NCBI GenBank assembly: GCA_026874595.1
Contig: CM049311.1
Span: 21,382,676 to 21,446,675, forward strand
From: Sipunculus nudus
Taxonomy: Eukaryota > Annelida > Sipuncula > Golfingiida > Sipunculidae
Length of the DNA stretch: 64,000 nt
Direction of reading: 5' to 3'
Part shown: piece after piece, positions 1,001 through 17,769 of the stretch
How positions within the stretch are numbered: the first letter of the stretch is position 1
Layout of the letters: every line of letters begins with the position of its first letter
The notes under the pieces: model-generated
What the model was told of the DNA's origin: nothing
Database searches by the model: none
The model's input: the letters and a program-made list of their open reading frames with translations, nothing else
Made by a program: the position numbers and the translations under genes

Positions 1001-1176
1001 CATAGCATTCTTCTATCATCACAGCATAAGGGTTTGTTCCACCCAGCATTTTGGCATCCTGTTCACCGAGACGTAATATATTCTCCAAGCCGTTCAGGGC
1101 CACCTGGACAATCTTACTGTCCAGCACCGTCAACAAGTCACACAAAGGAGGGATGCAGCCCTGGTCAACAAGGTAT
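1001..1176 (-). CDS. KPNA6: Importin alpha coding exon 11 (ARM9)
   Basis: Residues 415-473. [20 protein letters not shown], then [20 protein letters not shown], then [12 protein letters not shown], which matches the family's NPY..IEE.YG block. Donor TATG|GTAAGT. The following exon, which should carry the helix after YG and the acidic tail, was looked for in bases 1-1000 and is not there. Confidence 0.95.
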
Positions 1177-4100
1177 CTACGTAAACCAAAAAGACAACTC
1201 AATTTTTAGTCTATCAACCAAACAAGGTAACTGGATTGGTTACAGATAGTGTTCAGAATCAGTTGAATTTTCATGACATCAGTAACAAGTGCACTGCAAA
1301 CGTGCATAATATGCCTGTTGTGTATCTGCTGAACTCTGACCTCATAAAATATGCGTACATTTTGATGAGAAGATAATTCAGGTGAGAAACTCTAATGGTA
1401 AATATGTATAATGAGTTTCATGAAAATCCATAGGATTTTTGTTAGTCACCAAGGTGCCTCCGAAATGCGGTGACCTCTGACTTCATTAAATATGCATGGA
1501 TTTTGCTGGAAATCAAACTTAGATATTTCATTGATTAACATTTCTGAAGAGTTTTATCAAAATCATTCATATTCTTCAAAAGTTATCGCAGCGAGACCAC
1601 AAAGTAGCCTAGTGACCCTTGACCTTATTAAATATGTTTGGATGTTGCCCATAAATGAACTCAGGTGAGATTGTCTGTTGGTAAGTAGTTATGGTTAGTT
1701 TTGTGAAAATCCATCAAAGCCCCGGTAAGTTATCGCAGGGACAAGTTAACGGACGGACGGTGGGTATACCATAATACTCCTGTCATATGGCAGGCGTATA
1801 AAACTGATCAACCTCAACCAACCGACAATGGGAAATAATGGGTTATTTAGGAGTATTAACTTTCAGACCATACATAGACTGGTGCACAATCTCAACTAAT
1901 AAGTAGGCATATCTTCATTCTATAGCCTACATGTCTAGAAAGTAACTTCAGAATTCAGTTTTTTCTAGTAAATAGAGACTTTTCTCTGGTTTGTTTGCAT
2001 AATGTATATAAAAGGACATTTTCTCACCACAAAGCCTGCAATTGATTATGGCACTGCAAGATCAATCATTGGATCATTTGCATCAACCCAACCGATCATC
2101 GATTACAATCAATCACTGTTTTTTTTCAACTTTTTAATGCGTATGAAGTCCCACTTCACATATAAATGTTGCCAACTGCTGATCTTGCTTAATCCCCTAA
2201 CATAAATCATTTCCTGTGTTTAAGTGCAAATAACTCACTCTTAGAGATGCAATTTTAAAGTTGGCAGGCTTCTCCTACTAAGTATGGTAACTAACTTGTA
2301 ATTATTAATACGGCAGAAACACATTTCAACCGCAGAAATCCTAAAAACTAACATATCAAATTTAAATTAAATGTAATTTAACTGTAAATAACAGACATCA
2401 ATTTGGAGTACCCCCTTTGATTAAGATACAACATAATGAATGATACCAAGAACAAATATATGAAGATAAAATCAATTAAAACTAAAATACTTTCATAAGA
2501 AAGTAAAAGAACACTGAAATGTTTTCTTCTCTAGACATACATAAAGAATTTGGATACTTTGGTTACAAATGACACATATTAAATTTATTTTGACCTGACT
2601 AGCAGATATTTCTACCATTTCTACATACCCGGTACAGGACTATCATATTTTACCCTAGTTTCTGCGCCAATGAGGTATTCCTACCTTTCTAATCAGCCTA
2701 ATTTTTATAAACTAATGATTTTTTATGGAATATTCAACAATGCCACTCCATGGCTTGGATGGTGGTGTTAGGTAGTCTGTAGAAGTGAAGGAAATAGAGA
2801 GGACCCAAAGAAAACCATCAACCTTGGATTCACAAGAACTGAACCCAAGTTGCCAGCATGGAAGCCTAGTGTTATACCATTTTTTACCAGCTTAATTTCA
2901 TGACCTCACCTGATCTGCTCAGGTGTACCACCTGATGTGGCGTTGGTTATCGCCCACGCAGCTTCTTTCCGGGTGCGGAAGTCGGCTTTACCCAAGATAT
3001 CAATGAGGACAGGGAAGATATTGGCATCTATGACTGCTTGAATTTGCGCTCGGTTTCCAGCGGTGATGTTGGAAATCGTCCAGCAGGATTCCTTTCGTAT
3101 ACTTTCCTTCTGGCTACTCAGCAGATGCAACAAACATGGCAAAGCTGTGCAGTTCAATATCACCTGAAACCAGACAAACCATTCAATGAGGATAGTGGTC
3201 AATTTTGCGCATGATCTGAAAAACATTCATCTGAAACTGATAATTTTCCAGTTAAAATGCTCTACCAAGCTGCCACCTGCATATCCAACCAGTGACTGCC
3301 AAATTTTAGTCAAATATTTTTTTTTCTGTTTCAATTTCAAAACTTGACTCATGTTGGGGGAGCCATGATTAGGGGAAGATTGACTGGTACCCTGCACTAT
3401 AAGGACCCACTCACTGTATGAGAGCAGCAAGCTGTAACAGCAGGGGGTGCCAGTCTAGGCCGGGTATTGTTAGTTATGGCAACTGGAGAGATTGCACTGT
3501 TGACAACTTCCAGTCAGGCAATATCAGTATAATAACAGAGCTATGATCGTTTTCTGTTTCCCCCGGAATCCTGATTCTTGTTTGTGAGTACCTGGGCAAC
3601 TGATTGGGCAATATCAGTATAATAACAGAGCTATGATCGTTTTCTGTTTCCCCTGGAATCCTGATTCTTGTTTGTGAGTACCTGGGCAACTGATTGGGCA
3701 ATATCAGTATAATAACAGAGCTATGATCGTTTTCCGTTTCCCCCGGAATCCTGATTCTTGTTTGCGAGTACCTGGGCAACTGATTGGTTGCCTAAGACAG
3801 GCCCACTGTATACTTATCTGTTGGTCAATACCAGTTCTCCATATTTCATCGATACAAAATTCACTCTACCCCCCCCCCCCCCCCATTACTTCAAACAAAT
3901 TTCAGGCTCCCAAGGTCAGAGATCTTCAGATGACCTCCTGGGATTTTAACTTGGACAAGTGTTTATGATTTGTGGCCTGTTAACACATACATGGCTGACC
4001 AGACATAGGGTGACTGCTTCAGCTAAGACAACTGTCAGTTACTAAAATGAACAATTAGTTCTTTAAAAATACTGACAAGTAAATGTAATATATTTTCCCT

Positions 4101-7100
4101 ACAACAGAATAACACATGAACTATGAGACAATCCCACCTGTGTTTGTATGTCATCACCTGTGACGATGTTACCGACTGCCCTCAAGGCTGCTGAGACAAC
4201 ACTTTGACTTGTGTGCCTACAATCAAAGACAGAATCAACAGCAATGTATCAATAACAACTGCCAGTTATGGTTAAATGGGAGCTAACAGGATACCTCTTT
4301 TCATATGGTCTTTCACAAAACTATGTTCCATGACCCCCCTTTTTGCAACAACTTTTTATAAACAGAGTTAATATTTCAGAGGGACTTGGGTTTATTTATT
4401 TTTTCACTTCTGCCCGATGTCAATTTAACTCTTAGATGGAACGAAAGCAAGGCTTACTGATAACAGTGTGTATGGGTCCCCCTCTCTTTGGCATTACATT
4501 AACAAGATTGATCATAAATGTTTTTAAGGATGCAGTAAGTCATCTGGTTCAGTAAATAAATTATTGCTGTTACATATCTTTGTCCACAAGAAGGTGGTGT
4601 AATTAAATAATTAAGCACACACTGACTTATGAACTATCTTTATGCTAATAGTGCCTAATAAATATTTTAATAAAAAGTAATAACTGTCTCAAAATACAAG
4701 AGACAGTTAAGGTATCAACACAATCATCAGAAAATCATCAGAAAGTTAGACGGTCTTCAAAAATACATACAAAACAAAACAGATGTTTAATCAAACAGTT
4801 CCCATAGTCAGCTTCATATGCTAAGAGGTTAACTTTTTGTGATTTTCACTTTTTCAGTATCATGTGAGGGTTCTATTTCCATAGGTGTATTCATTATTAT
4901 ATGAATTGTTCAATATGAATACAACATCGTAAAAATATACAAAGTATACCAAAACACACTAAATGAGTGGAAATTCTTGTCCACTTCTGGCAAGTTATAA
5001 AACAGATCTCATATAATTTATGATATCAACCTTGCAACATTATACAGACATAGATAACATACATGACTTAACCTGTGTATAATAGGTTTCTTATTCATAA
5101 AGGTTTTATTTTCAAGATGATATCCCTATCGCAAATATTGCGAATTGAACTGTCCACCACAGCCCATATGCTCCACCTGTTTAACCTAATTATTATAATG
5201 AGCCCCAAAAATGCTTCTACACAGGTCTTCGTGCCCATGGTTGTGAAAGCTGTTTACAAGACAATAATGACGTCACAAACGTTGATGACGTATGATGCTG
5301 CACTGAATGAAATCATCAACTGGAATTGCTGTTCTCCACTGATAAATACATCACAGTCATTGAACTGTCTTGCAATATTTTGGATTATTTGTCTCATACA
5401 AATTAGGTGCCAGGTAAAGACATTATTATTCACTTGGGAGTTGGAGGAATCACTTTTGTAACCTATGGCCTAAAACCTCTTTTGTATAAAAAAAATATCC
5501 CGGAAAACATAACAACATGGTTACTGGTAGAGACTACACCTGTTCTGTTTTGCAGAGCTCTGCTGAATTATGCAAATTTAGTGTTTGTCAGATGATTGAC
5601 GGTTTACATTGCAACAGTCACCTGATTGGTTGCTCGTTGGTCCAATGCTTATGATTATTCATTGAATGAATATGTGATTAAGGTCACAGTGTTCATGGAT
5701 AGGTCAATTTGATTCCATTGTGAACTATAAGCCAACCACAGTATTCCCTAGCATATTGTGTTTTGTATTCAAATATACAATTCTTACAGCTTACATTAAT
5801 AATTCAACGAGTCTCCTGCAGACGCCAGAGTCAATTACAGCTTGGATTTTTTCGTTAGGGCCATCTGAGAGGTAGGAAAGGGCCCAGGAGGTGTCGGCCA
5901 GCACGTCCGCATCTGTGTGGAAGAGGAGACGTGCTAACACAGGCAGGGCCGGGCTCACCTACAAAATCAACAGTAGTTTATGGTCTGAAAAATATGAAGA
6001 AAAGATGTGCTAATAAACGCAGGGCCGGACTCACCTACAAAATCAACAGTAGTTCATGGTCTGTAAAATATAATGGAAGAAGAGATGTGCTAACACAGCA
6101 GGACAGGGCTCACCTACAGAATCAAACAATAGTACCGTAAAATCTCCACTTAAAACCACACTTCCGATTAAAACCGCACCCAGACTTCGCCGAAATTCCA
6201 GGTGAGACACCGCAAGGGGCTCAAATACTAAGAAACCCCCTTTAAAACCGCACCAACTTTCGCTACAGAATGATTTGACAAAAGACACAATCAACCTATC
6301 ATCTAGAAATGAACACGTGTAGGTTGCGACTCGGCCATTCCTGTCCGCTTTAAAATTCCTTGGGCATTTTATTCAAACACATCATAACACTTTTTTGCAG
6401 GGTCACTCAAGCATGAAGTTTGGGAAGACGTACGGGCCGGTGAACCTCTGCCTGTTTATACAGATTTTATATTCCATGCCATATTCATGTTTGCTACGGA
6501 TTTGTCATTATATTTTGGAAAAAATATTCTGCTGATCCATTTCAAGTGACTGTATATTTTAATTCCAAAAGTAATATTTTGAAATCTTAATTTTTGATGA
6601 AAATTCTATTTTTTTGGAATTACTCGGAAGATTCAAATCATTTTCATACCGGTTACTTCGGTATTATCATCGTCACATCGTATATTGACATCGCTCCATG
6701 TCACAATTTCCTGGTGCGTTTGAAAACATTGCTGGTCAACTTAACTTAATATCAAAGTAACTGAAGTTACCTTGTCGAGGTACGCATGTAAAGGAAACAT
6801 AACGCTTGAAAACGAGTGATTTTAAGGTAAAATTAAAGTGGCCAGTCGGGGTAAGCAAGTTTTTTTCCTGAAGAAAGTTTCCCTGTGGGGAGCCATTTTG
6901 TCAAGGCAGTGTTCGCGCAAGGCACGCTGGGACGAAATAGGTGGCTGTTCTGTTTACCACCCACCACGTACAGCCGTTCAAAATATTCTTAGCAGAATAC
7001 CAGGGCGTTTCAGCACATGGCGACACTCAAACTTAATTTTAAAACGATCGTCTGCCACTGTGCGACTCTTTACGAAGTCAGCTTTTTATTCATTTTACGT

Positions 7101-10100
7101 TTTAAACAAATAATCATTGCTAAATAATGCCGCAAATGGGTTTAAAGTGGGCTTTTATTTCCATTTTGCTTGACCATGCCCAACGAAGTGGGCCCCTGTG
7201 TGTTACAGCAGGGTTGTTGTAAACATATTATTTGGTGACAATTACCAAGATTTTATAACAAGTTATATATCACACGAAAACTAATCAGCAATATTTAATT
7301 TATAAATAACAAATAATCATAAATAATACATATACACAAGGCTCCAATGCATGCGAGACTGCTGCTAAGAATGGCCTTCGAAAGTTGCAATATTATCACC
7401 CACTCGCCGGCCCAAAAACAATGTCTGTCAGGAAGGTATTCAGGAAACCCTTCTAATATAAACCGCACAGTGCTTTCAGGAAATCAACCCGATTTCAAGA
7501 TTTGAATTTCTTGATTAAACCGCGGTTTTAAGTGGAGATTTTACGGTAGTTCATGATCTGTAAACATAATACACTATACCAGTAGGAAGATATACCAAGT
7601 ATGTGATGTTTGGTTGCACAATTCGGACACTCAGGGACTGCTCACAGGCGCAATAGCCCATGGGTCTGTAATATGTCAGATGAACTTCCAACAGATATTG
7701 CATCAATCCTACAGTGTGCACTGTAGGAAACATGTTATCTATCTGTCTGTCCCTCTCTTTCACACATGATTTCAAACTGTTTGAGACATTACTCATAAAA
7801 TATTTTTCATCTCAATTATTTTAATTTAGATGGGATTATGTCCCCTACTAGATGTGTTTTTTAATGATGCCGTTTGTGTTGTCTTTAGAAGCCAAGGACA
7901 AAAAGACTGATTCAGCTTAGCTGTGATGATTAAAACTTACCTTGCTGAATTCAGGAGGTGGGTTCTTGCCTCGACACAAATTTGACAAGCACCACACGGC
8001 ATTCCGCGTCATTGACAACCGTTTAGACTGGGTCAGGAGTCTAAAAGAACGGAGTAAACACATTTAAACCTGCTTAGCACTGTAAAACAGCGGGGAATTA
8101 CCAGAGATGCCAAGATAGTTAAACCTGAAAGACTGGTTTAACAAACTTGTGTATACTCTTCCAAAAAATGTTGATAATTCTGTGCATTACAAAATCTTTT
8201 TTGCTTCTATTTCTTTTGACTTAAATTATTAACATATGCATATGCTACATTACATCGTAGAGGCCAATGAAATCATAAAGAACTTTTTACAAGTTGGGTA
8301 TTTGCAGGTCTTAAATCTATGGTAGCTCCAGCCAAAAATGGCAGTATTCAGCTTGAACATAGTTCTCTTATGTCCAAATGATATGCGATTCCATTGGTGT
8401 GAAAATGGAAGCAAATTGAAGCAACACAAGTTTCATGCCAAATGTAGGATACTTGCCATCTCTGAAATGCTACAATGTTTATTATAAATGGAGCACATAA
8501 ATACTAACCAGGAAGTTAGTTAATATACACAGACCACACTAAGTCTTATACCAAACAGTTAACAAAAAATTATTAAATCATCTGTTGACATCAGCTGAAG
8601 TAAATAAATTACCATAATTGAAATAATTTTTTTTCAAAATAAGATGTTACATATTAATTTCAAGCATCCAAAATTATGATATTTTTTTGGGATTAAAATT
8701 TGGCTATACCTTAAACCCCAAGTTATATTGCAATAAAACTCTCACTCACATGTGACAACATTTATAAAAAGAGTATATGATAACACATAAAACGTGACCT
8801 CATGACAACACTCCCGAGGCAGCGGAAATCTTACGCTTCTAATGAAGCAACTGATTTTCACGCTGTCAGCTTTGACCGTTTATGATATATTTAGACACCA
8901 GATGGCGGTTCGTTGTCCGCTGAAAAACACTTGCGTATGATGTGACAAGCAGCCAACCCGATGCCAATAAACAATCACTCGACAGGCATACTGGCTCCGC
9001 CCATAGCTGCGCTTCAAGCGCTGTTTGAAGACAGTTAACGGTCGAATTTTAATTGTTCCCTATACATTCTTGCATCATCAACCGATTCGATTCTGACAGT
9101 ATGACTGTGTTAGCGTAGCCATGTATCTGCTGTCTGCAGAACTGAAACGAGCCAGCGAGGTGTGCACGCAGCCTTTGTTGTTACGTTTCGTTTGAATTAC
9201 AGCTCACTGGCTGGGCATCCTATGTGCCCAAGGCCCTAAGCAAACCACGTCTTCGGCAATTCTCTCCGAGCCTGTGGCCTGTTGACATGGTTACCGGGAT
9301 GATGAGCTGTCACTCAAAACGAAATGAAAGTGATTGGCTCTGTGCATTCCTTACTTGGCCTTGTCTTCCAGCACAAGGTCTCATCTGATTGGACAAAAAT
9401 ACAGTGCTCCCCTCTGGTGTAGCAGTTCAGGAAACGAGGTCATAACAAACAAGGCTTACCATATAGGCAGTAGGCCTATAGTTAAAGTACTGTGTAAAGG
9501 GCATACCTCATGACCAGTCCCATTTATACAAAGTACCACTGTGTTGTGCACAATGTAATACTTCAGTAACAAAGGGAAATGTTTAATAGAAACTGGGGCT
9601 TAAGAAATCCCAGCAAAACTATAGCAGTTACACACTGAATGCACAAATACATGTAAAAAGACAAAACAATTTCTGAAATAAAATTTAAATATAACAATGA
9701 GGCTTGTTGAAGTGAAAATTAGAAAAAAAGTGCACTCACTACATCATAATTTACAATAACAAATTGCACAATGCAAAACAGTGAAAGATGTAGATCTTTA
9801 ATCATGTTCAGTACCAGTCACTTTGAAATTTCACAAACATATTAGGGGTATAATGTTTCATTTGATCATTATTGATGTTTATGAAATGTAAATAGTTAAT
9901 ACATTAATACATTTAAATATTCTTATGCATTAAATATTTAATTTTGAATTGAGTGTTTTTATATCCTAAAGAAAGGTTTGGAAAATTACCACCTGCCAAA
10001 GGTAAATGATTATTCAGCTGATAACAAAATTAATGTTTCACATGGCTGAAAATAAAACATAAAAATCCCCACAATATGTACACATTTACTCACTGGACAA

Positions 10101-13100
10101 GCGGCCCTAGGATGCCTTCATTGAGTACGAAGTCTCGGCACTGGGGGCTATCCCCTGCTATGTTGCCTAAAGCCCACACCGCCTAGCAGAGAGACAGTTC
10201 AATGTGTAAGTACCATGCCACAAGATGCATTAGAATTATACCACAAGATGGCGCCATCTGCTGGACTAACCTGCGGTGTCAGATCAACTGCATGCCTGTG
10301 CCATATCCAAAACTTCCAAGAAATACAAGGAATGAAGTGAATACAAAACACTGAGGTCAAAACAAACCGGATCTGTTCTTGTAGGGAAATTGTTAATTGT
10401 AGCAAACAAGGTTATTATATACAAATTGGGCCAAATACACCCACAGGTATAGAAGTACCAATTTTTCCTCAAACATACCTGCCCCTTATTTGCATGATGT
10501 AATTAGAAACAGACTATTCGGGCTTAAGTAGCTGCAATTTGCTTGTTAAAAAAAAACAGAGAACCAATCCATGCAAGGCATCTAAAACACAGGATCAGCT
10601 ATGTGCAAAGTTTAAGATTTCATATTAGGGCTCATCTTTTCAAGTCATTCCTGCTCAATTTGAAACTCAGAGAGGGTTCAGCAAAAGTTCAAAATCTGCT
10701 GGTGCATCTTGCTTTTAACATAATTACAGGGATTGTTTTGCGTCCTTTTGATTTTGATTCTGAGGCTTCATAAAAGGATCATTTAGTATTTTGTATTACC
10801 ATTCTAGGGATCAGCTGGTATTTGTTTTACCCTTCAAAGGATATTCTGTTTTACCCTTAAGTGATCAGGTATTATTTGTTTTGCCCTTCAAGGGATCAGC
10901 TGGAATCAATATTTTTCCTAGTCTGGGTCACCAGGGACTTGTTTTGACCTCAGAGTGTGGCTAAGAAAGAAAGAACAAACAACACTGGGAGAAGCATGGT
11001 GAACATGTCATGTGACATAATACGACCCTGATAAAAGGATCATCCAGGAAAGCTTTAAGTATTGCAACTGGATGAGGCTCATCCTTGTGTGAAAAGATGT
11101 ACATTTAAAAAAAATGTACATGGGCCTCTGGTTTCCATGTATTATATTTAACTCAATTACCATATTTGAATAAACCTGGGTCAGAATTACTTACAAACCA
11201 AACATGTAGGTCACCAATTCTGGTGTGGCGTTAAATTTCAATATATATATATAAATATATATATACATATAAAATTGTAATGTAGATAATTGTTTTCAGT
11301 CATCTGTTGACAGAAATATGTGAACAGAGAAATAACATGCTCAAAAATACCAAGCTACAAAACATTTTTGAGACCAATGATTAAAAAACATGCAAGTTAA
11401 ATATACCCTGCCAGTTCATGGACAATCACCTTAGTTCAGCATGACTGATGGTCAATATAATTGGAGTGGGTAAAACTTACCCCCCCCCCCTCTTCCTACG
11501 TTCACCTGACATTCCACACACCATGCCTCTCCTTCAGCTAAACACATGCAATAAATATTAATCTTACTGCAACAGTGGAACAAGTGCCCCCTCTTGGAGC
11601 ACATAGTCGCGGCACTCTGGGCTGTCTCCAGCGATATTACCTAAAGCCCACACAGCCTACAAACACAATCAATAGTAGGTTATGAAGTCTCATAAATATT
11701 CATGCAGGTCATTAGGCATGAAGAAGTAATCCTGCAGCAAATGGTTTAGCAAACACTGATAAACAATGTAGCCATGACCATTGGAAGCATAAAGAATATT
11801 ATTTTTTTCATTTTTAAAAAATACACCTAATTAAAATTCAAATTCAATTTAAAATTTAATATGCTGCAATTTTTATTAGTTGCCATTAAGAAAAACCAAG
11901 AGAAAACAGCATTTCAGCTGCAGTCCCAGTTCCTTGTGCCACTACAGACATATGCATTTGACTTAGTCAAACACTGCATGGCTGGTCAGCAGAATGAACT
12001 CCTCTGAGACAAAGAGAAATACTTGGAAAATACAGAAAGCTGGAACATTTGGCCATGAATTCAGCTCAATTCATCTGACCCTGTGGCCTTAATTCCAATT
12101 TATTTCTTATTCATCCTTCATTTTCAATTTTATCAATTCATATAATTTCCCCTTCAATTACAATTCAATTTAGAATCTGTGAGCAAGACATGCATATCCT
12201 CTTCAACAGGAGGCTGTGTAGGGTTATTTATATTTTAGTTTTCAGGTAAGTAAGCCTGACGGGAAAATGGAATATACAACATTGAATTTCATTTTGCTGA
12301 AAATGTAGACCTTCAGTGTAACTTACAGCTCTAATATCCACATTCTAAAAGAAATATACTTAACATTCATTATTTTTTTGAAGAGTTCATATAAAGAATC
12401 ACTGCAACACTTCAAGTATTTTTTTTATTAATAAATTCTTAATTCTGTTATTTGTTACTAAATCAGCCATCCTGTGAATCCATATTTCTTTTAAAAGTTA
12501 GGGGATTTGAAACTTCTGGAAAATTGATGACAAGAGAATATATAAGTATCAACAGTACTTCATTAAATGCAGATATAACCACACAGTCAATTCCAAAAAT
12601 GTATGTGTCAGGAAAATGTTTCATTACCTGTTCTTGCACATCTTCAAATTCTGACTGTAATAATCTGACAAATATTGGCACCGCTCCTGCTTCTATCACT
12701 ATCCTCGTCTGCATTGACGTACCAGATGCTATGTTTGTCAAAGCCCATGCAGCTTCAAACTGTCAACAATATAAAAACAATACAACAGACAGTCCCCAGG
12801 AGCATGGGCAATACGTTTTGTTTTAGTTTGCTGTGTTGGAGTTCAGTGTTGCATGGAATATCAAATGAAATCAGACGACCATCTGGAAACTCTTGCAGGG
12901 AGCTCATTGTCAAAGATACTGCAGGTTTAAAATGTTCAATCATCAGAGATGTAAAAAATCTGACCTTTCACCTTAACATAAAAGACTTGAAAATTCAGTG
13001 TCAGTCATTGCTGACAGGTGCTGCCAGTGTGATGGGTAAAGTTGATTAAAATTAATTATAAACTTATGTAATTCCCATTCACACTTTTCTTATAAAATAC

Positions 13101-15774
13101 ATTAACATACCTTTCATTAAATAGACTAAAACATTTGTTCTCCATATCTGAAGATGACATTTGTGCCTATATTCAAACTGTATTGAAAAACAGCTAATAT
13201 TTCAGCCCTGGCATATTACAGAATTACTTATCCATATCTCAGTGACAGTCACTGCTGACAGGTGCTGCCAGTGTGATGGGTAAAGTCAATTAGAAAATAA
13301 TATTAAACTTATGTATGTACTATCCCTCACACTTTTCTTTTCAAATACATTAACATACATTTTATCAAACAGACTAAACCATTTAATTGGTCTCCATATC
13401 AGAAGATGAAATATGTGCCTTTATGCAACCAATATGGAAAAAAACAGCTAATATTTCAGCCCTAGCATATTACAGAATTACTGATCCATACCTCAGAACA
13501 TCTGCCACATTTCAGATTGATCTATTTCCTGTTCCATATAGCATAAACCATGTGTTAGGCTAAGCAAAAGACTAACCTGTAATGTACAGTTGGTGTCTTT
13601 CTGTAGAAACTCTGTGAAACGTGGCACAATGCCAGTCTGTATCACTTCATCTATAGGTGGATTGGGCTCTGGACAATACAAGAAACAATCAATTACATGT
13701 CTACACACACATATTCAATTTCTTTCCATAGTATCTTCAAGATAATTGCTCAAATTTGTTTAGAATCAATAACATCTTATCAGTGATTTCCATCATGCAC
13801 AACATCATGGTTTTACATTTCTATTTTTGATTTTCTCAAATCAGCCAATTCAGCTCTCATTGTACAAAATGAACTGGATCCCATTGTAAAGCTATGATTT
13901 CTTCCTGCAGATCACCAAATTTTAATATTCAATACCTCATGCACCCTTTGGAAAATGGGTTAAGTGACAATGGTAATGCTTCACTAAAAATGGGACACAG
14001 ATTCCAGTACAGGCATGCAAGTAAGAAAATTTCTATTCACTTTTAAATAAGCCTGAACTTAGGCCTTAGTAGTGGTATTTGAAAGTTTCTTATTTCTTGT
14101 ACAACTGTTATAAATTTAGTAGAAGTCTCCCCTTCTGCAGGGCTCCATAATTTCAGGGGACAATTGAATTAAAATCACTGACTGATCCTGACTGGTGTAT
14201 GCTAGCAATGACTGTTACCAATTAGTCATATTCAGACTTAAAATAGAAAATGTAGGTGCTGACCTCTAGAGAGAAGTTTCCTAAACATTTGTGTTGCTGC
14301 CAACTGCTGCTCCAGGTTATCGCTATAAAGAGCTTGTACCATTTCCTGTGTGATGATGCCCTGTGAAAGAAAGTTCAAAGGTCATATCACATTTGATTTA
14401 CTTTCAAAAACATATACAACAACGACTGCCGTGGAAATTGAGGCAATTAAAAAGGAAGCCACAAAACCCTCAAATTCCAAAGAAACCAATTTTTATTTCA
14501 CTGCAGTTGAACTTTCAGTATTTGTGGCGTCTTATGTTTAAAACAGCAAAGATGCATGATCGTGCATGTGTTTCCTGATCTTCACATGATACAGAAGGTA
14601 TGTCAGGACTCAACATTTATGGTTAACTGCTTGCCCAGGGCAAGTAAAAATGGTGGCAGGGCAACCAACAGCGGATTCCTACTTGCCCAACTGGGCAAGT
14701 GGGTGCAAAATAAACCTATATACAAGGGCCTGAATCTTGACTAATCTTAAGTTGGCCACTTTCTTTTTAAGGAGATGTGAAAACATATTTTAATACCTCT
14801 AGCTGTAATTAAATGCAAGTCTTAAATCTATGCAAATGCCAAAGAGAAATATAATTAACAAAATAATCATGTGGATCAAATTTTTGGTGGTTGTGGCCAG
14901 GATTACTGATTTTGTGGGACAAGTAAAAACCATGTAGGGCAAGTAGAAGCTAGTTGTCACTTGGTCTACCTGGCAAATATTTTCAAAAGTTAATGTCAAG
15001 CCCTGTACATGATATAAAAGATGAATATTTGATCATCTGTCACTTTTCAATCAGTCATGAAACATGACTTAAAACCAATTCCTGACACTATTATACACCA
15101 TTTGCCAGGAACTCACCCCAAATGTCAAAGCTGAGGATGTGACCAATGTGTCCTGCACGGCAGCTGCACCTTCTTCAAGTTCTTCTGCTGGGACATTCAC
15201 ATTACGCCGCTTAAAAAGCTGAAAGAAAATATCAGCTGGCATTAAACTAAGTATGTGGATTCTGTCCCTCGAACTTCAGTAGCTACCAGCTAAGAACAAT
15301 GTAACTCTCTTGATTCCAGAATTTTACTTACCTTATCAATATGCATGTTTTATATAAATACACAAATATACTGAGGAGGCAGTTTCTCCTGTCAAAAACA
15401 GCTGCAGTCAATATTGTATGTACTAGACCAGTTGTAAAATGCTCTAAAAGACCTTACAATACGTAGACAGCTAAATGGTCTAGCAAGAATGCATTAACAA
15501 CATGTGTATGATGTACCGTAATGTCTACTTGAATTCGTACAGGAAAAAATAATTATTTTTCTCAGTGTGTTAATTATTATATGTAAAATATGACAAATTA
15601 GAATATTGCAGGAGAGAAGATCACCTGAGAATCGGCGGGGGGCGATAATAGAGGATGTACGGCAACCCTCATGTTAATTATTATTTAACACTTGTTCGGG
15701 TATATATGCGAGCGCTGCTGGTGACGATAAAGATATCCATTATATCCTGTAACTGGCATTTTATAAACCAGTGC

Positions 15775-15819
<45 letters not shown>

Positions 15820-17769
15820 ATACAGGGTTTTAGCCGCGCCGCACGGGGGTAACCGGGACGGCCTGTACTGCCGGCGGGAACAAACTAAACTAAACATTTG
15901 TAACCCACAGACCGGCACAAAAGTTCATAAAGATCGTAAAAAAATCCAGCTACCGGCAATGGAACTTCAGTAATTTTTTTACCCTAAACTGTTAAATTTG
16001 TACCTCATTAGTATGTTTACAAATTTATTTGATCACGGCTATGGTGCAAAAAGAATTGACAGGAGTCACTGATCACCTTAATATTACACATCAAATAAAT
16101 TACTGGTAAACAAACAAGCAACGATCTTCGAAGGGTTTCACAGTTTGGACATGAAAGGAAAACATCATTAGCCAGAAGTCTCTCACTGCATACATCGGTG
16201 CGTAGCATCATTAGCGGTAAGAAAATAGGCTATTGTTTTGTAATAATTCATGGCAACATTTAATTCATTTATTGTATGGATTTCAGAATACGCCCTAAAA
16301 AAGCAATGGTGATTTTCTCAGGGCGTTAATGAAATTTATTCCGGTTGCCACCTGGCGGCAAGTGAACTTATTACAGCCATGAATATGTAATCTCACCATA
16401 TTTATTTATATATTTCAATAAATTAAATGTTTATTTTACCCGTTTGGTAATTCCAGTGGAAAGAAATAAATGAAAAATATATGTTTATGATATTTCTAAA
16501 CTGGGACGGGGGAATAACATAAAAGGGGGAAAAAATGTGATAGGTTTGAACCAGGGGTATAAGGCTAACATTCTCTCTGTTCATGCGCCTCTAACCAATC
16601 GGCCACAGAAGCCAATACAAGCATTTAAGTTTTTATTTGGGAGATTCCAATAAGATTCATACAGCGGGGTAAAAAAAATAAATTATTTCATGGACATTAC
16701 CGGCATTTATCAAATAAAAACTCTGGAAGACAGCGATATATCCTTTGTAGTTGCGGTTCAAAGCACTCTGACGATCTCCATTTAACCTTTGATGTCTTGC
16801 AGCACCAGGTCATGCCTGTGATCAGTGGTCCGTGCGAGGTTTGTCCCGAGTGGATTACCAGTATATGATCATCACCTTATGTGATTTTTTCCCCACTTAC
16901 AAATCCTTCTTATTCTATTATTAAGTAAACAAAATATTACCGATTAAAACACATTTTTTACCTCGAGTTCTACTGTTCAAATCACATTCATGTTGTAACA
17001 AGTCTGAAGCAAAGATGGCTCATCGGTATCAATTAAGTGACAGTTTTTCCTATTTACAAACATGAAGTCGCAAATCTGATAAAATTGTTCCGATAAATTA
17101 TCATGTTACTGCCACGCACTAGGACATAAAGATGTCTTGTTATCAGGTGAACAGCGTCGACATTTGATTTATCTCAGTATGCAAAGCCGTTTTAATCATA
17201 GCAACAATTATGGTTCATACGGACCGCCGGTGGTCACCGGCAATAGCTAATATCGGCACAGTATGTTGGTGTACGAATTCATATATGTATTATAGAAAAA
17301 TATGTTTCAGGAAATTTATAGTGTGCGAACTAATGAAGGATACGAACTAATGTAGACATTACGGTATACTGGAAATCCAGTTATTTTACAGGTAGAAGAA
17401 CAATATTGCTTTTAGACTGATAAAATCATCTCGTAAATCATTAGGATATTTTAAAAACTGACATAAAAAGGGCTTGCAATAAATGACAAATCAGTGATGA
17501 TGATTTAAATGATTGTTAAGCACCTAAAAATTAATAGAGATTTTTTCGTGGTAAAATAATTGTGTTATTCTGTAACTGTCACAGGGCTACAGTACAAGAA
17601 ATCTGTATGTTCACATTAATTTAACACTGTGTACCTGTTGTTCACGTTTTTGTTTTCGGAGCTGTATACCTTCCTCTTCTCTCCGTCTCCGCATTTCTTG
17701 CGAATCCATGCCTTTGTTTTTATAGGACTTAAGACGATGGTTGGCAGCCGGGCTCCCTGGTTCCGTCAT
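1001..17769 (-). CDS. KPNA6: Importin subunit alpha (KPNA1/5/6 type), 3' end off window
   Basis: Adaptor that binds classical NLS cargo and links it to importin beta for nuclear import. Coding exons in transcript order: 17635-17769, 15117-15218, 14264-14360, 13577-13668, 12628-12759, then 11568-11656 or 10094-10182, then 7941-8040, 5795-5958, 4138-4216, 2910-3163, 1001-1176. All have GT-AG introns and phases that join without error. About 473 residues are visible, against roughly 530-540 in the family; the acidic, CAS-binding C-terminus must lie left of base 1. Visible are the N-terminal importin-beta-binding domain ([13 protein letters not shown]-type basic clusters) and armadillo repeats with the W..N ladder (AWALTN, VWALGN, VWCLSN, SWALSY, CWTISN, AWAITN). 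The N-terminus resembles the KPNA1/5/6 clade rather than KPNA2 or KPNA3/4; which vertebrate paralogue is closest cannot be settled. Exon 6 is duplicated, the outstanding oddity. Confidence 0.95.
1272..1803 (-). repeat. Family B interspersed repeat, copy 1
   Basis: Read on the minus strand it starts at about 1803 (CATATGACAGGAGTATTATG), passes a CCGTCCGTCCG run and then shows about four diverged units of roughly 110 bp, each with a 'gataacttac ... gaaaatcc ... accaacagataatctcacctga ... catatttaataaggtca' pattern. It ends near 1272 with 'gtgcacttgtta'. The same architecture appears in plus orientation at 37085-37612. No ORF. Lies in importin alpha intron 10. Confidence 0.7.
2910..3163 (-). CDS. 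KPNA6: Importin alpha coding exon 10 (ARM6-8, minor NLS site)
   Basis: Residues 331-414. [40 protein letters not shown] and [18 protein letters not shown]: the ARM7 and ARM8 W..N pairs that form the minor NLS-binding site. Acceptor TTTCAG, donor CAG|GTGAGG, 254 nt. Confidence 0.96.
3517..3786. repeat. Tandem repeat, 3 x 90 bp
   Basis: Three near-identical 90-bp units starting GGCAATATCAGTATAATAAC at about 3517, 3607 and 3697, in importin alpha intron 9. Because 90 is a multiple of three, the minus strand stays open through all units, giving a spurious 30-residue repeat. Confidence 0.9.
3869..3884 (+). repeat. Poly(C) run, 16 nt
   Basis: Sixteen consecutive C in an AT-rich intron. Length may be unreliable in the assembly. 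Confidence 0.9.
4138..4216 (-). CDS. KPNA6: Importin alpha coding exon 9 (ARM6)
   Basis: Residues 304-330. [20 protein letters not shown] then DDIQTQ. Acceptor TTGTAG, donor CAG|GTGGGA, 79 nt; phase returns to 0. Confidence 0.94.
5140..5740 (+). repeat. Family F interspersed repeat, copy 1
   Basis: About 600 bp homologous over its length, in inverted orientation, to 39800-40400 in FIG4 intron 17. Shared landmarks are 'ccaccacagcccatatg', 'attataatgagcccc', 'gtttacaagacaataatga' and 'gaatgaataa'. It carries a perfect CRE-like TGACGTCA near 5268, which is TGACATCA in the other copy. No coding sense; class unknown. Sits in importin alpha intron 8. Confidence 0.75.
5795..5958 (-). CDS. KPNA6: Importin alpha coding exon 8 (ARM5)
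   Basis: Residues 250-303. [20 protein letters not shown] then [20 protein letters not shown]. Donor AT|GTAAGC, phase 2. The acceptor (GTAG|GTGAGC) and the first bases of this exon are repeated twice more just upstream in the intron; see the repeat at 5930-6117. Confidence 0.95.
5930..6117 (-). repeat. Tandem repeat duplicating the exon 8 splice acceptor
   Basis: Three units of about 78 bp, each holding the intron-exon junction of importin alpha exon 8. The true junction is at 5958; diverged copies of 'gcagggccgggctcacctac' end near 6038 and 6116. Each keeps the AG|GTGAGCC order on the minus strand, so each is a possible decoy acceptor. The units continue as 'aaaatcaacagtagttcatggtctg'. Confidence 0.85.
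6135..7546. mobile_element. TIR DNA transposon, about 1.4 kb, TA target site
   Basis: Perfect terminal inverted repeats of about 23 bp beginning CCGTAAAATCTCCACTTAAA, flanked by TA on both sides (6133-6134, 7547-7548). Sub-terminal 'aaaccgca' motifs recur inside. It interrupts the last unit of the tandem repeat at 5930-6117: joining the flanks at one TA restores 'caatagTAgttcatg', as in the uninterrupted units ('caacagTAgttcatg'). No transposase is recognised; a 91-codon ORF at 6838-7113 matches nothing I know. TA duplication suggests the IS630/Tc1/mariner/pogo group; non-autonomous. Confidence 0.88.
7941..8040 (-). CDS. KPNA6: Importin alpha coding exon 7 (ARM4)
   Basis: Residues 216-249. 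[14 protein letters not shown] then [21 protein letters not shown]232 and N236 continue the NLS-binding ladder. Needs two bases (CA) from exon 6a or 6b. Acceptor TTTTAG, donor AAG|GTAAGT. Confidence 0.95.
8795..9442. other. CpG-rich patch in importin alpha intron
   Basis: About 650 bp with markedly higher GC and CpG than the surrounding intron, between exon 6b and exon 7. On the minus strand it holds two CCAAT boxes (ATTGG on plus at 9333-9337 and 9388-9392) and a GC box (CTCCGCCC on plus at 8995-9002). Its ends carry an inverted TGACCTC / GAGGTCA pair, so it may instead be a transposable element. No exon with a good start is apparent. Confidence 0.4.
10094..10182 (-). CDS. KPNA6: Importin alpha exon 6b (ARM3, alternative version)
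   Basis: 89 nt, phase 0 to 2, a tandem copy of exon 6a. Encodes [20 protein letters not shown] then NEGILGPLV. Acceptor TCTGCTAG behind a good pyrimidine tract, donor CA|GTGAGT. Groove residues W, N and D are kept; changes lie at E/Q, Y/F, Q/N, A/I, V/G and L/V. No stop codon or frame damage, so it reads as functional. Confidence 0.92.
11480..11490 (+). repeat. Poly(C) run, 11 nt
   Basis: Short mononucleotide run in the intron upstream of exon 6a's donor side (between exons 6a and 6b). Confidence 0.85.
11568..11656 (-). CDS. KPNA6: Importin alpha exon 6a (ARM3, alternative version)
   Basis: 89 nt, phase 0 to 2. Encodes [20 protein letters not shown] then QEGALVPLL. Acceptor TTTGTAG, donor CA|GTAAGA. 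Contains the ARM3 W, N and D of the major NLS groove (W189, N193, D197). It shares about 70% of bases and 23 of 29 residues with exon 6b, 1.4 kb downstream in the transcript, and the reading frame allows only one of the two per mRNA. Confidence 0.93.
12628..12759 (-). CDS. KPNA6: Importin alpha coding exon 5 (ARM2, major NLS site)
   Basis: Residues 143-186. [15 protein letters not shown] carries the ARM2 tryptophan and asparagine (W147, N151) that grip the NLS backbone. Ends FEDVQEQ at a phase-0 donor (CAG|GTAATG), so either version of exon 6 can follow. Confidence 0.96.
13005..13495. repeat. Direct duplication, 2 x about 245 bp
   Basis: Two diverged tandem copies in importin alpha intron 4, starting at 'gctgacaggtgctgccagtgtgatggg' near 13008 and 13254. 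They share 'cacacttttct', 'aatacattaacatac', 'tctccatatc' and 'acagctaatatttcagccct'. No exon is included. Confidence 0.85.
13577..13668 (-). CDS. KPNA6: Importin alpha coding exon 4 (ARM1-2)
   Basis: Residues 112-142. Encodes [18 protein letters not shown] then the [12 protein letters not shown] block conserved in the family. Acceptor GTCCAG, donor CAG|GTTAGT, 92 nt; phase returns to 0. Confidence 0.95.
14264..14360 (-). CDS. KPNA6: Importin alpha coding exon 3 (first ARM helices)
   Basis: Residues 80-111. Encodes [20 protein letters not shown] and [10 protein letters not shown], the start of the armadillo domain. Acceptor TTCACAG, donor GAG|GTCAGC, 97 nt, ends in phase 1. Confidence 0.94.
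14605..15000. repeat. Family E interspersed repeat, copy 1
   Basis: Shares head and tail with 53575-53985: 'ctaatcttaagttggccactttctttt' and, near the end, 'ttactgattttgt', 'agggcaagtagaagc' and 'attttcaaaagttaatg'. Internal 'ttgcccagggcaagt' and 'cttgcccaactgggcaagt' are small palindromes. Non-coding, in importin alpha intron 2. Confidence 0.65.
15117..15218 (-). CDS. KPNA6: Importin alpha coding exon 2 (IBB end)
   Basis: Residues 46-79. Begins [10 protein letters not shown], the conserved end of the IBB, then an acidic linker (EELEEGAA). Acceptor TTTCAG, donor GGG|GTGAGT, 102 nt, phase 0 to 0. Confidence 0.95.
15779..15813. repeat. (TA)n microsatellite
   Basis: About 17 TA units inside the TIR element. 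Confidence 0.95.
16536..16611 (-). repeat. tRNA-like SINE head or tRNA pseudogene
   Basis: On the minus strand a pol III A box (TGGCCGATTGG, 16595-16605) is followed at normal distance by a B box (GGTTCAAACC, 16543-16552). The D-arm GCC/GGC pairing is visible, but the T stem and acceptor stem do not pair, so this is not a working tRNA. The start GCTTCTGTGGC is shared with 33118. Confidence 0.65.
17635..17769 (-). CDS. KPNA6: Importin alpha coding exon 1 (IBB domain)
   Basis: Residues 1-45, start [20 protein letters not shown]. The arginine-rich RRRREEEG block and the following RKQKRE are hallmarks of the importin-beta-binding domain. The ATG is the first in frame and follows a TTTAG acceptor directly, so the 5' UTR continues in an upstream exon. 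Donor CAG|GTAC, phase 0. Confidence 0.95.

Follow-up and report, generated by a model that had tools for sequence, protein, structure and literature searches.

An importin alpha gene of Sipunculus nudus with two selected copies of exon 6 that are probably mutually exclusive

In the analysed window, a minus-strand gene for importin alpha, the receptor for protein import into the nucleus, contains two neighbouring copies of its sixth coding exon, denoted 6a and 6b, which are very probably an ancient mutually exclusive pair whose wrong combinations would be cleared by a frameshift and nonsense-mediated decay (NMD), as in vertebrate U2AF1. The window is a stretch of 64,000 nucleotides of the Sipunculus nudus assembly (G000:C6:21382676-21446675; genome of 1.43 Gb in 153 contigs), and the positions given below are counted from its first base. 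The gene, its exon structure, the selection acting on both copies, and the frame logic of the pair are regarded as firm readings of the DNA.

Gene structure and frame logic of the exon pair

The predicted protein combines an IBB domain with eight scored Arm stretches and an atypical Arm_3 repeat, and the IBB, Arm, and Arm_3 domains are likewise present in KPNA1, KPNA5, and KPNA6. The gene is assigned to the alpha1 class (KPNA1/5/6 type), because human importin alpha-7 was its top match in the PDB with 798.8 bits, followed by alpha-5 and alpha-1 chains. All 12 coding exons and the alternative copy of exon 6 were assembled, where exons 1 to 11 are inside the window. All coding introns are GT-AG, and the reading frame extends from ATG to TGA. 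The exons are as follows.

Exon 1: 17635..17769, minus strand; start codon and importin-beta-binding domain
Exon 2: 15117..15218, minus strand
Exon 3: 14264..14360, minus strand
Exon 4: 13577..13668, minus strand
Exon 5: 12628..12759, minus strand; ends in phase 0 (EQ) and can join 6a or 6b
Exon 6a: 11568..11656, minus strand; 89 nt, phase 0 to 2, 29 residues
Exon 6b: 10094..10182, minus strand; 89 nt, phase 0 to 2, 29 residues
Exon 7: 7941..8040, minus strand; finishes the split codon (CA plus A, Gln) after 6a or 6b
Exon 8: 5795..5958, minus strand
Exon 9: 4138..4216, minus strand
Exon 10: 2910..3163, minus strand
Exon 11: 1001..1176, minus strand
Exon 12: L030 5170-5357, past window base 1 (left edge); stop codon

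The sequence-only reading that preceded this analysis had described two 89-nt minus-strand exons about 1.4 kb apart with intact splice sites, both able to join the same neighbours, and the assembled gene agrees with this description. The copies are at 11656-11568 (6a) and 10182-10094 (6b) with a spacing of 1,385 nt; the acceptors are tttgtag (6a) and ctgctag (6b), the donors are gtaaga (6a) and gtgagt (6b), and each copy can be joined to exon 5 in phase 0 and to exon 7 in phase 2, where the split codon is CAA both times. The coding sequence containing either 6a or 6b is 1,608 nt long and encodes 535 residues with no internal stop.

It had also been claimed that the use of both copies, or of neither, shifts the frame. 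In the assembled coding sequence, a stop appears at codon 221 when both copies are included and at codon 192 when neither is, which is the sixth codon past the wrong join in each case. Only transcripts with a single copy give the full-length protein, because of the frame itself. The premature stops are 846 nt (both copies) and 755 nt (neither) upstream of the last exon junction, and the usual threshold for NMD is 50 nt before that junction; the stops predicted for these transcripts are therefore far beyond the usual 50-nt rule. NMD would remove the mRNAs with both copies or neither, and protein would then be produced from the single-copy mRNAs alone, because the wrong combinations are removed. 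The two exons are homologous neighbours in the same phase, their splice sites are intact, the frame is broken when both or neither copy is used, and coding constraint is found on 6a and on 6b. The mutually exclusive layout proposed earlier thus holds under the test of the frame.

The stop at codon 221, located far upstream of the last junction, would also suit a different role, in which one copy is mainly a regulated poison exon whose inclusion beside the other leads to decay and thereby sets the level of importin alpha. However, the frame is open with either copy alone, and a poison exon would have no reason to keep its amino-acid identity at saturated synonymous divergence, as described in the next section; this explanation is considered highly improbable. 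A truly exclusive pair could nevertheless have such a poison-exon role as a secondary function.

Tandem repeats were observed in other parts of the same gene. The acceptor of exon 8 and its first 41 nt are inside a 76-nt tandem repeat at 5918-6133 of the minus strand (2.7 copies, 83% matches), and because the acceptor and start belong to this repeat, two decoy copies of the start of exon 8 are located upstream of it. The decoy starts and the real start all read AG followed directly by GTGAG, that is, joined 3' and 5' splice-site-like sequence. Further intronic tandem repeats are at 12995-13496 (254 nt in 2 copies, 84% matches) and 3517-3787 (90 nt in 3 copies, 97% matches).

Age of the duplication and the residues that differ

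The two copies agree at 62 of 89 nucleotides. The 29 codons comprise 8 that are the same in both copies, 15 with synonymous differences, and 6 that encode different residues, so that 23 of the 29 residues agree, as had been counted before. By the Nei-Gojobori method, differences occupy 18.5 of 21.5 synonymous sites, a saturated level, compared with 8.5 of 65.5 nonsynonymous sites (pN 0.13), and 11 of the 14 fourfold sites shared by the two copies differ. The lower 95% bound on the synonymous distance is 1.4 when all synonymous sites are used (18 of 21 in this calculation) and 0.8 with the fourfold sites, where these estimates rest on few sites because the pair is only 29 codons long.

Neutral evolution was simulated with one copy drifting, using 4,000 runs per distance. 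Six or fewer residue changes occurred with frequencies of 0.006, 0.0005, 0, and 0 at branch lengths of 0.3, 0.4, 0.5, and 0.65, respectively, and a stop was acquired in 52 to 66% of the simulations. When the neutral half-share of the synonymous distance between 6a and 6b is taken as 0.4 or more per site, such conservation is reached in at most 0.05% of runs, and a stop is present in over half of the copies. A neutrally drifting copy would almost never resemble the observed pair.

Compared with human KPNA1 and KPNA6, 6a differs at 7 and 7 residues, and 6b at 8 and 7, respectively. Neither copy is the decayed one, because both are about equally distant from the human proteins. In PDB searches, the two 72-residue exon contexts scored 157.5 and 158.2 bits against human alpha-7, and the score of 6a was somewhat above that of 6b against plant alphas. 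The earlier claim of long purifying selection on both copies is borne out by the saturated synonymous sites, the 23 retained residues, and these near-equal distances. The same data bear on the explanation that a single copy is in use and that its partner is a leftover of tandem duplication which splicing now passes over. The gene region readily undergoes tandem duplication, as the arrays at 3517-3787, 5918-6133, and 12995-13496 indicate, and a relic could have arisen here. However, the synonymous sites are saturated and yet 23 of 29 residues are kept, there is no stop or indel, the splice sites are intact in both copies, and the two are nearly equidistant from KPNA1 and KPNA6; a relic is thus very unlikely.

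P13, E22, and G23 are common to 6a and 6b and missing from human KPNA1 and KPNA6. Together with the near-equal distances to the human proteins, this fits an old duplication within this animal's own lineage, for which the comparison of four sequences gives only a hint.

The substitutions are unevenly placed within the exon. Positions 1 to 13 are identical in the two copies, including W3, N7, and D11, which from their spacing are presumably Trp184, Asn188, and Asp192 in the IMP-alpha numbering of a receptor described elsewhere. In that receptor, these three residues contact the NLS positions P3 and P2 (PMC3858281). The ARM3 contact residues W, N, and D of the major site are therefore present and invariant in both copies, and both isoforms would bind classical NLSs, because the contact residues for P2 and P3 are identical. 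The six changes, E14Q, Y18F, Q21N, A24I, V26G, and L29V, are all within the last 16 residues, downstream of the NLS-contact residues, an arrangement with a chance of about 0.017. From the helix assignment, these last 16 residues are taken to be the start of ARM4. The difference between the isoforms should be located in the packing or the outer face of ARM4, and the six substitutions would tune this packing or surface and, in turn, the preference for cargo or partners.

Origin of the pair and choice of one copy

A genome-wide protein search with the peptide of the joined 6a and exon 7 had six matches at E<=0.001, of which three are in this gene (exon 7, 6a, and 6b) and the other three at other places. 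Used as a DNA query, 6b matched only itself (one candidate scored). Chance resemblance between 6a and 6b is judged to be excluded. An assembly duplication was also considered and is ruled out, as a single contig carries both copies, 27 of their 89 bases are different, and the matches listed include the gene just once. Nor did a set of 21 matches contain a retrocopy from which a spliced form could be read, as none of them was a long, continuous, high-identity match to alpha1.

Two other importin alpha genes were found, at 8.26 Mb of contig C6 and at 10.07 Mb of contig C9, which are labelled by resemblance as alpha2-like (L027) and alpha3-like (L028, L029), respectively. The segment is single in both of them, without an intron at the position between exons 5 and 6, and a search over 10 kb and 20 kb of sequence revealed no further ARM3 exon. 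A divergent armadillo-repeat gene with weak resemblance to importin alpha was observed at G000:C7:17220500-17229500 (L031). Scans with exon 10 and with a four-row alignment of ARM3 and exon 7, made against bacterial, archaeal, and viral collections, found no relative. The sequence-only reading had spoken of a mollusc; a mollusc haemocyanin domain used as a marker had no match in the genome, although no positive control responded either.

The assembly also includes bacterial contigs (C60, C61, C62, C66, C72, C74, C75, C89, and C123; L033-L043), whose source could be symbionts or contamination. Eight contigs carry genes for haem-copper oxidase subunit I with closely similar scores, with two copies 2.04 Mb apart on C89; seven oxidase loci are 94-99% identical in DNA to the first, with 37-40% GC. 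A 112-kb contig of another bacterium carries an oxidase gene of the cbb3 type. When the assembly was searched for bacterial 16S rRNA, no more than two matches appeared, both weak and located on C18 and C4 (5 candidates scored).

That the two exons exclude each other in the RNA is a prediction, as are the regulator and any effect on cargo. Steric exclusion is unsupported, where the intron of 1,385 nt between the copies is too long. Incompatibility of U2 and U12 sites is likewise unsupported: judged against the U12 consensus, no minor-class sites are present, the donors being gtaaga and gtgagt, with AG acceptors in both copies. A distant branch point was rejected as well, as the AG-exclusion zones of 30 nt (6a) and 73 nt (6b) compare with 15 to 69 nt in the nine other internal exons; that of 6b exceeds the others slightly but is not unusual.

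Exclusivity might instead be achieved by competing RNA structures of the introns, with docking and selector sites, in place of a protein factor plus NMD. The intron 7 site 9243-9231 can pair with the start sequence that 6a and 6b have in common (−25.9 and −23.5 kcal/mol), as can the bases beside it with further parts of each exon. The top stem, within intron 6, has an energy of −31.1 kcal/mol, compared with −28.5 kcal/mol as the mean of the best shuffled stems. However, the energies of the intron-intron stems are inside the range of 16 dinucleotide shuffles, the extreme of which is −32.1 kcal/mol, and the intron 7 site belongs to an interspersed repeat that matches 40 other places in the genome, so that it is not an old conserved docking site. 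Exclusion by RNA structure is not supported and is considered very unlikely. The repeat itself is a GC-richer block at 8850-9480 of intron 7 (47% compared with 35% for the window), with 41 matches genome-wide including itself, the others of 90-94% identity (2,864 first-look candidates). No significant shared element was found near the exons in the intronic flanks of 6a and 6b; the comparison gave one low P of 0.037 (300 shuffles), which belongs to an AT-rich match far downstream. With the stems inside the shuffled range and no significant shared element near the exons, the frameshift is the only exclusion mechanism that the analysis revealed.

With 6a and 6b read as an exclusive pair, a candidate for its regulation was observed beside 6a. 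Two copies of TGCATG, the DNA form of the Rbfox motif UGCAUG, are in its flanks.

TGCATG: 11701..11706, minus strand; starts 50 nt upstream of 6a; candidate Rbfox site
TGCATG: 11545..11550, minus strand; starts 18 nt downstream of 6a; candidate Rbfox site

Among 11 internal exons, 6a is the only one with UGCAUG within 100 nt, and it has the motif in both flanks. The motif occurred on both sides with a frequency of 0.004 in 5,000 shuffles, which is an optimistic P because the motif was picked after looking. For this reason, the arrangement is taken as a hint that points to Rbfox control. A tissue-specific factor of the Rbfox type may choose 6a through the flanking UGCAUG sites, with 6b used otherwise, a weaker proposal than the clearing by NMD.

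Relation to known exon pairs and meaning

The nearest parallel is vertebrate U2AF1, which also has tandem exons of equal length in a core gene and wrong combinations that run into stops. Its exons Ab and 3 are tandem 67-nt exons that differ by seven residues; inclusion of both, or of neither, introduces stops, and NMD lowers the level of such transcripts (PMC5224494). U2AF1 is a gene of another kind in another phylum, and in the same source the expression of both of its isoforms is shown, whereas the importin alpha pair is known from DNA sequence alone; a regulatory stem-loop is described there for U2AF1, whereas none was found for importin alpha.

Tandem duplicated exon substitution events concern about 1.1% of human and fly genes and are enriched in membrane and muscle terms, according to a survey (PMC9741552). 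As in tropomyosin, actinin, and the voltage-gated channels of that survey, homologous exons would be swapped here, with changes that are mostly conservative and functional residues that are kept. The words importin and KPNA are absent from the main text of that survey and from the main text of a human survey (PMC5740500). A 2007 review of mouse and fly importin alpha transcripts mentions no swapped ARM exon in the passages and the part of its table that were consulted, but the table lists the lengths of the proteins, which would stay the same after a swap of equal-length exons (PMC2652405). A Chlamydomonas paper on importins and alternative splicing was considered as a precedent and set aside, as it concerns an exportin exon skip (PMC7534427). 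The earlier statement that no such pair was known for importin alpha is consistent with the full-text literature, in which none was recognised among the matches listed; most subscription journals and database annotations are outside this scope.

The cargo choice of importin alpha is usually attributed to the paralogue that a cell expresses. As a tentative and rather doubtful extension, a deep invertebrate lineage may have diversified a single alpha1-class receptor by an Rbfox-type, tissue-specific swap of an exon bordering the major NLS site, and vertebrates by gene duplication (KPNA1, KPNA5, and KPNA6). If the old, selected swap beside the major NLS groove holds, one gene would provide two receptors through splicing, and a core transport gene would join a class of splicing events that is enriched in membrane and muscle proteins. 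A natural pair of isoforms, six residues apart, would allow the contribution of ARM4 to cargo choice to be tested.
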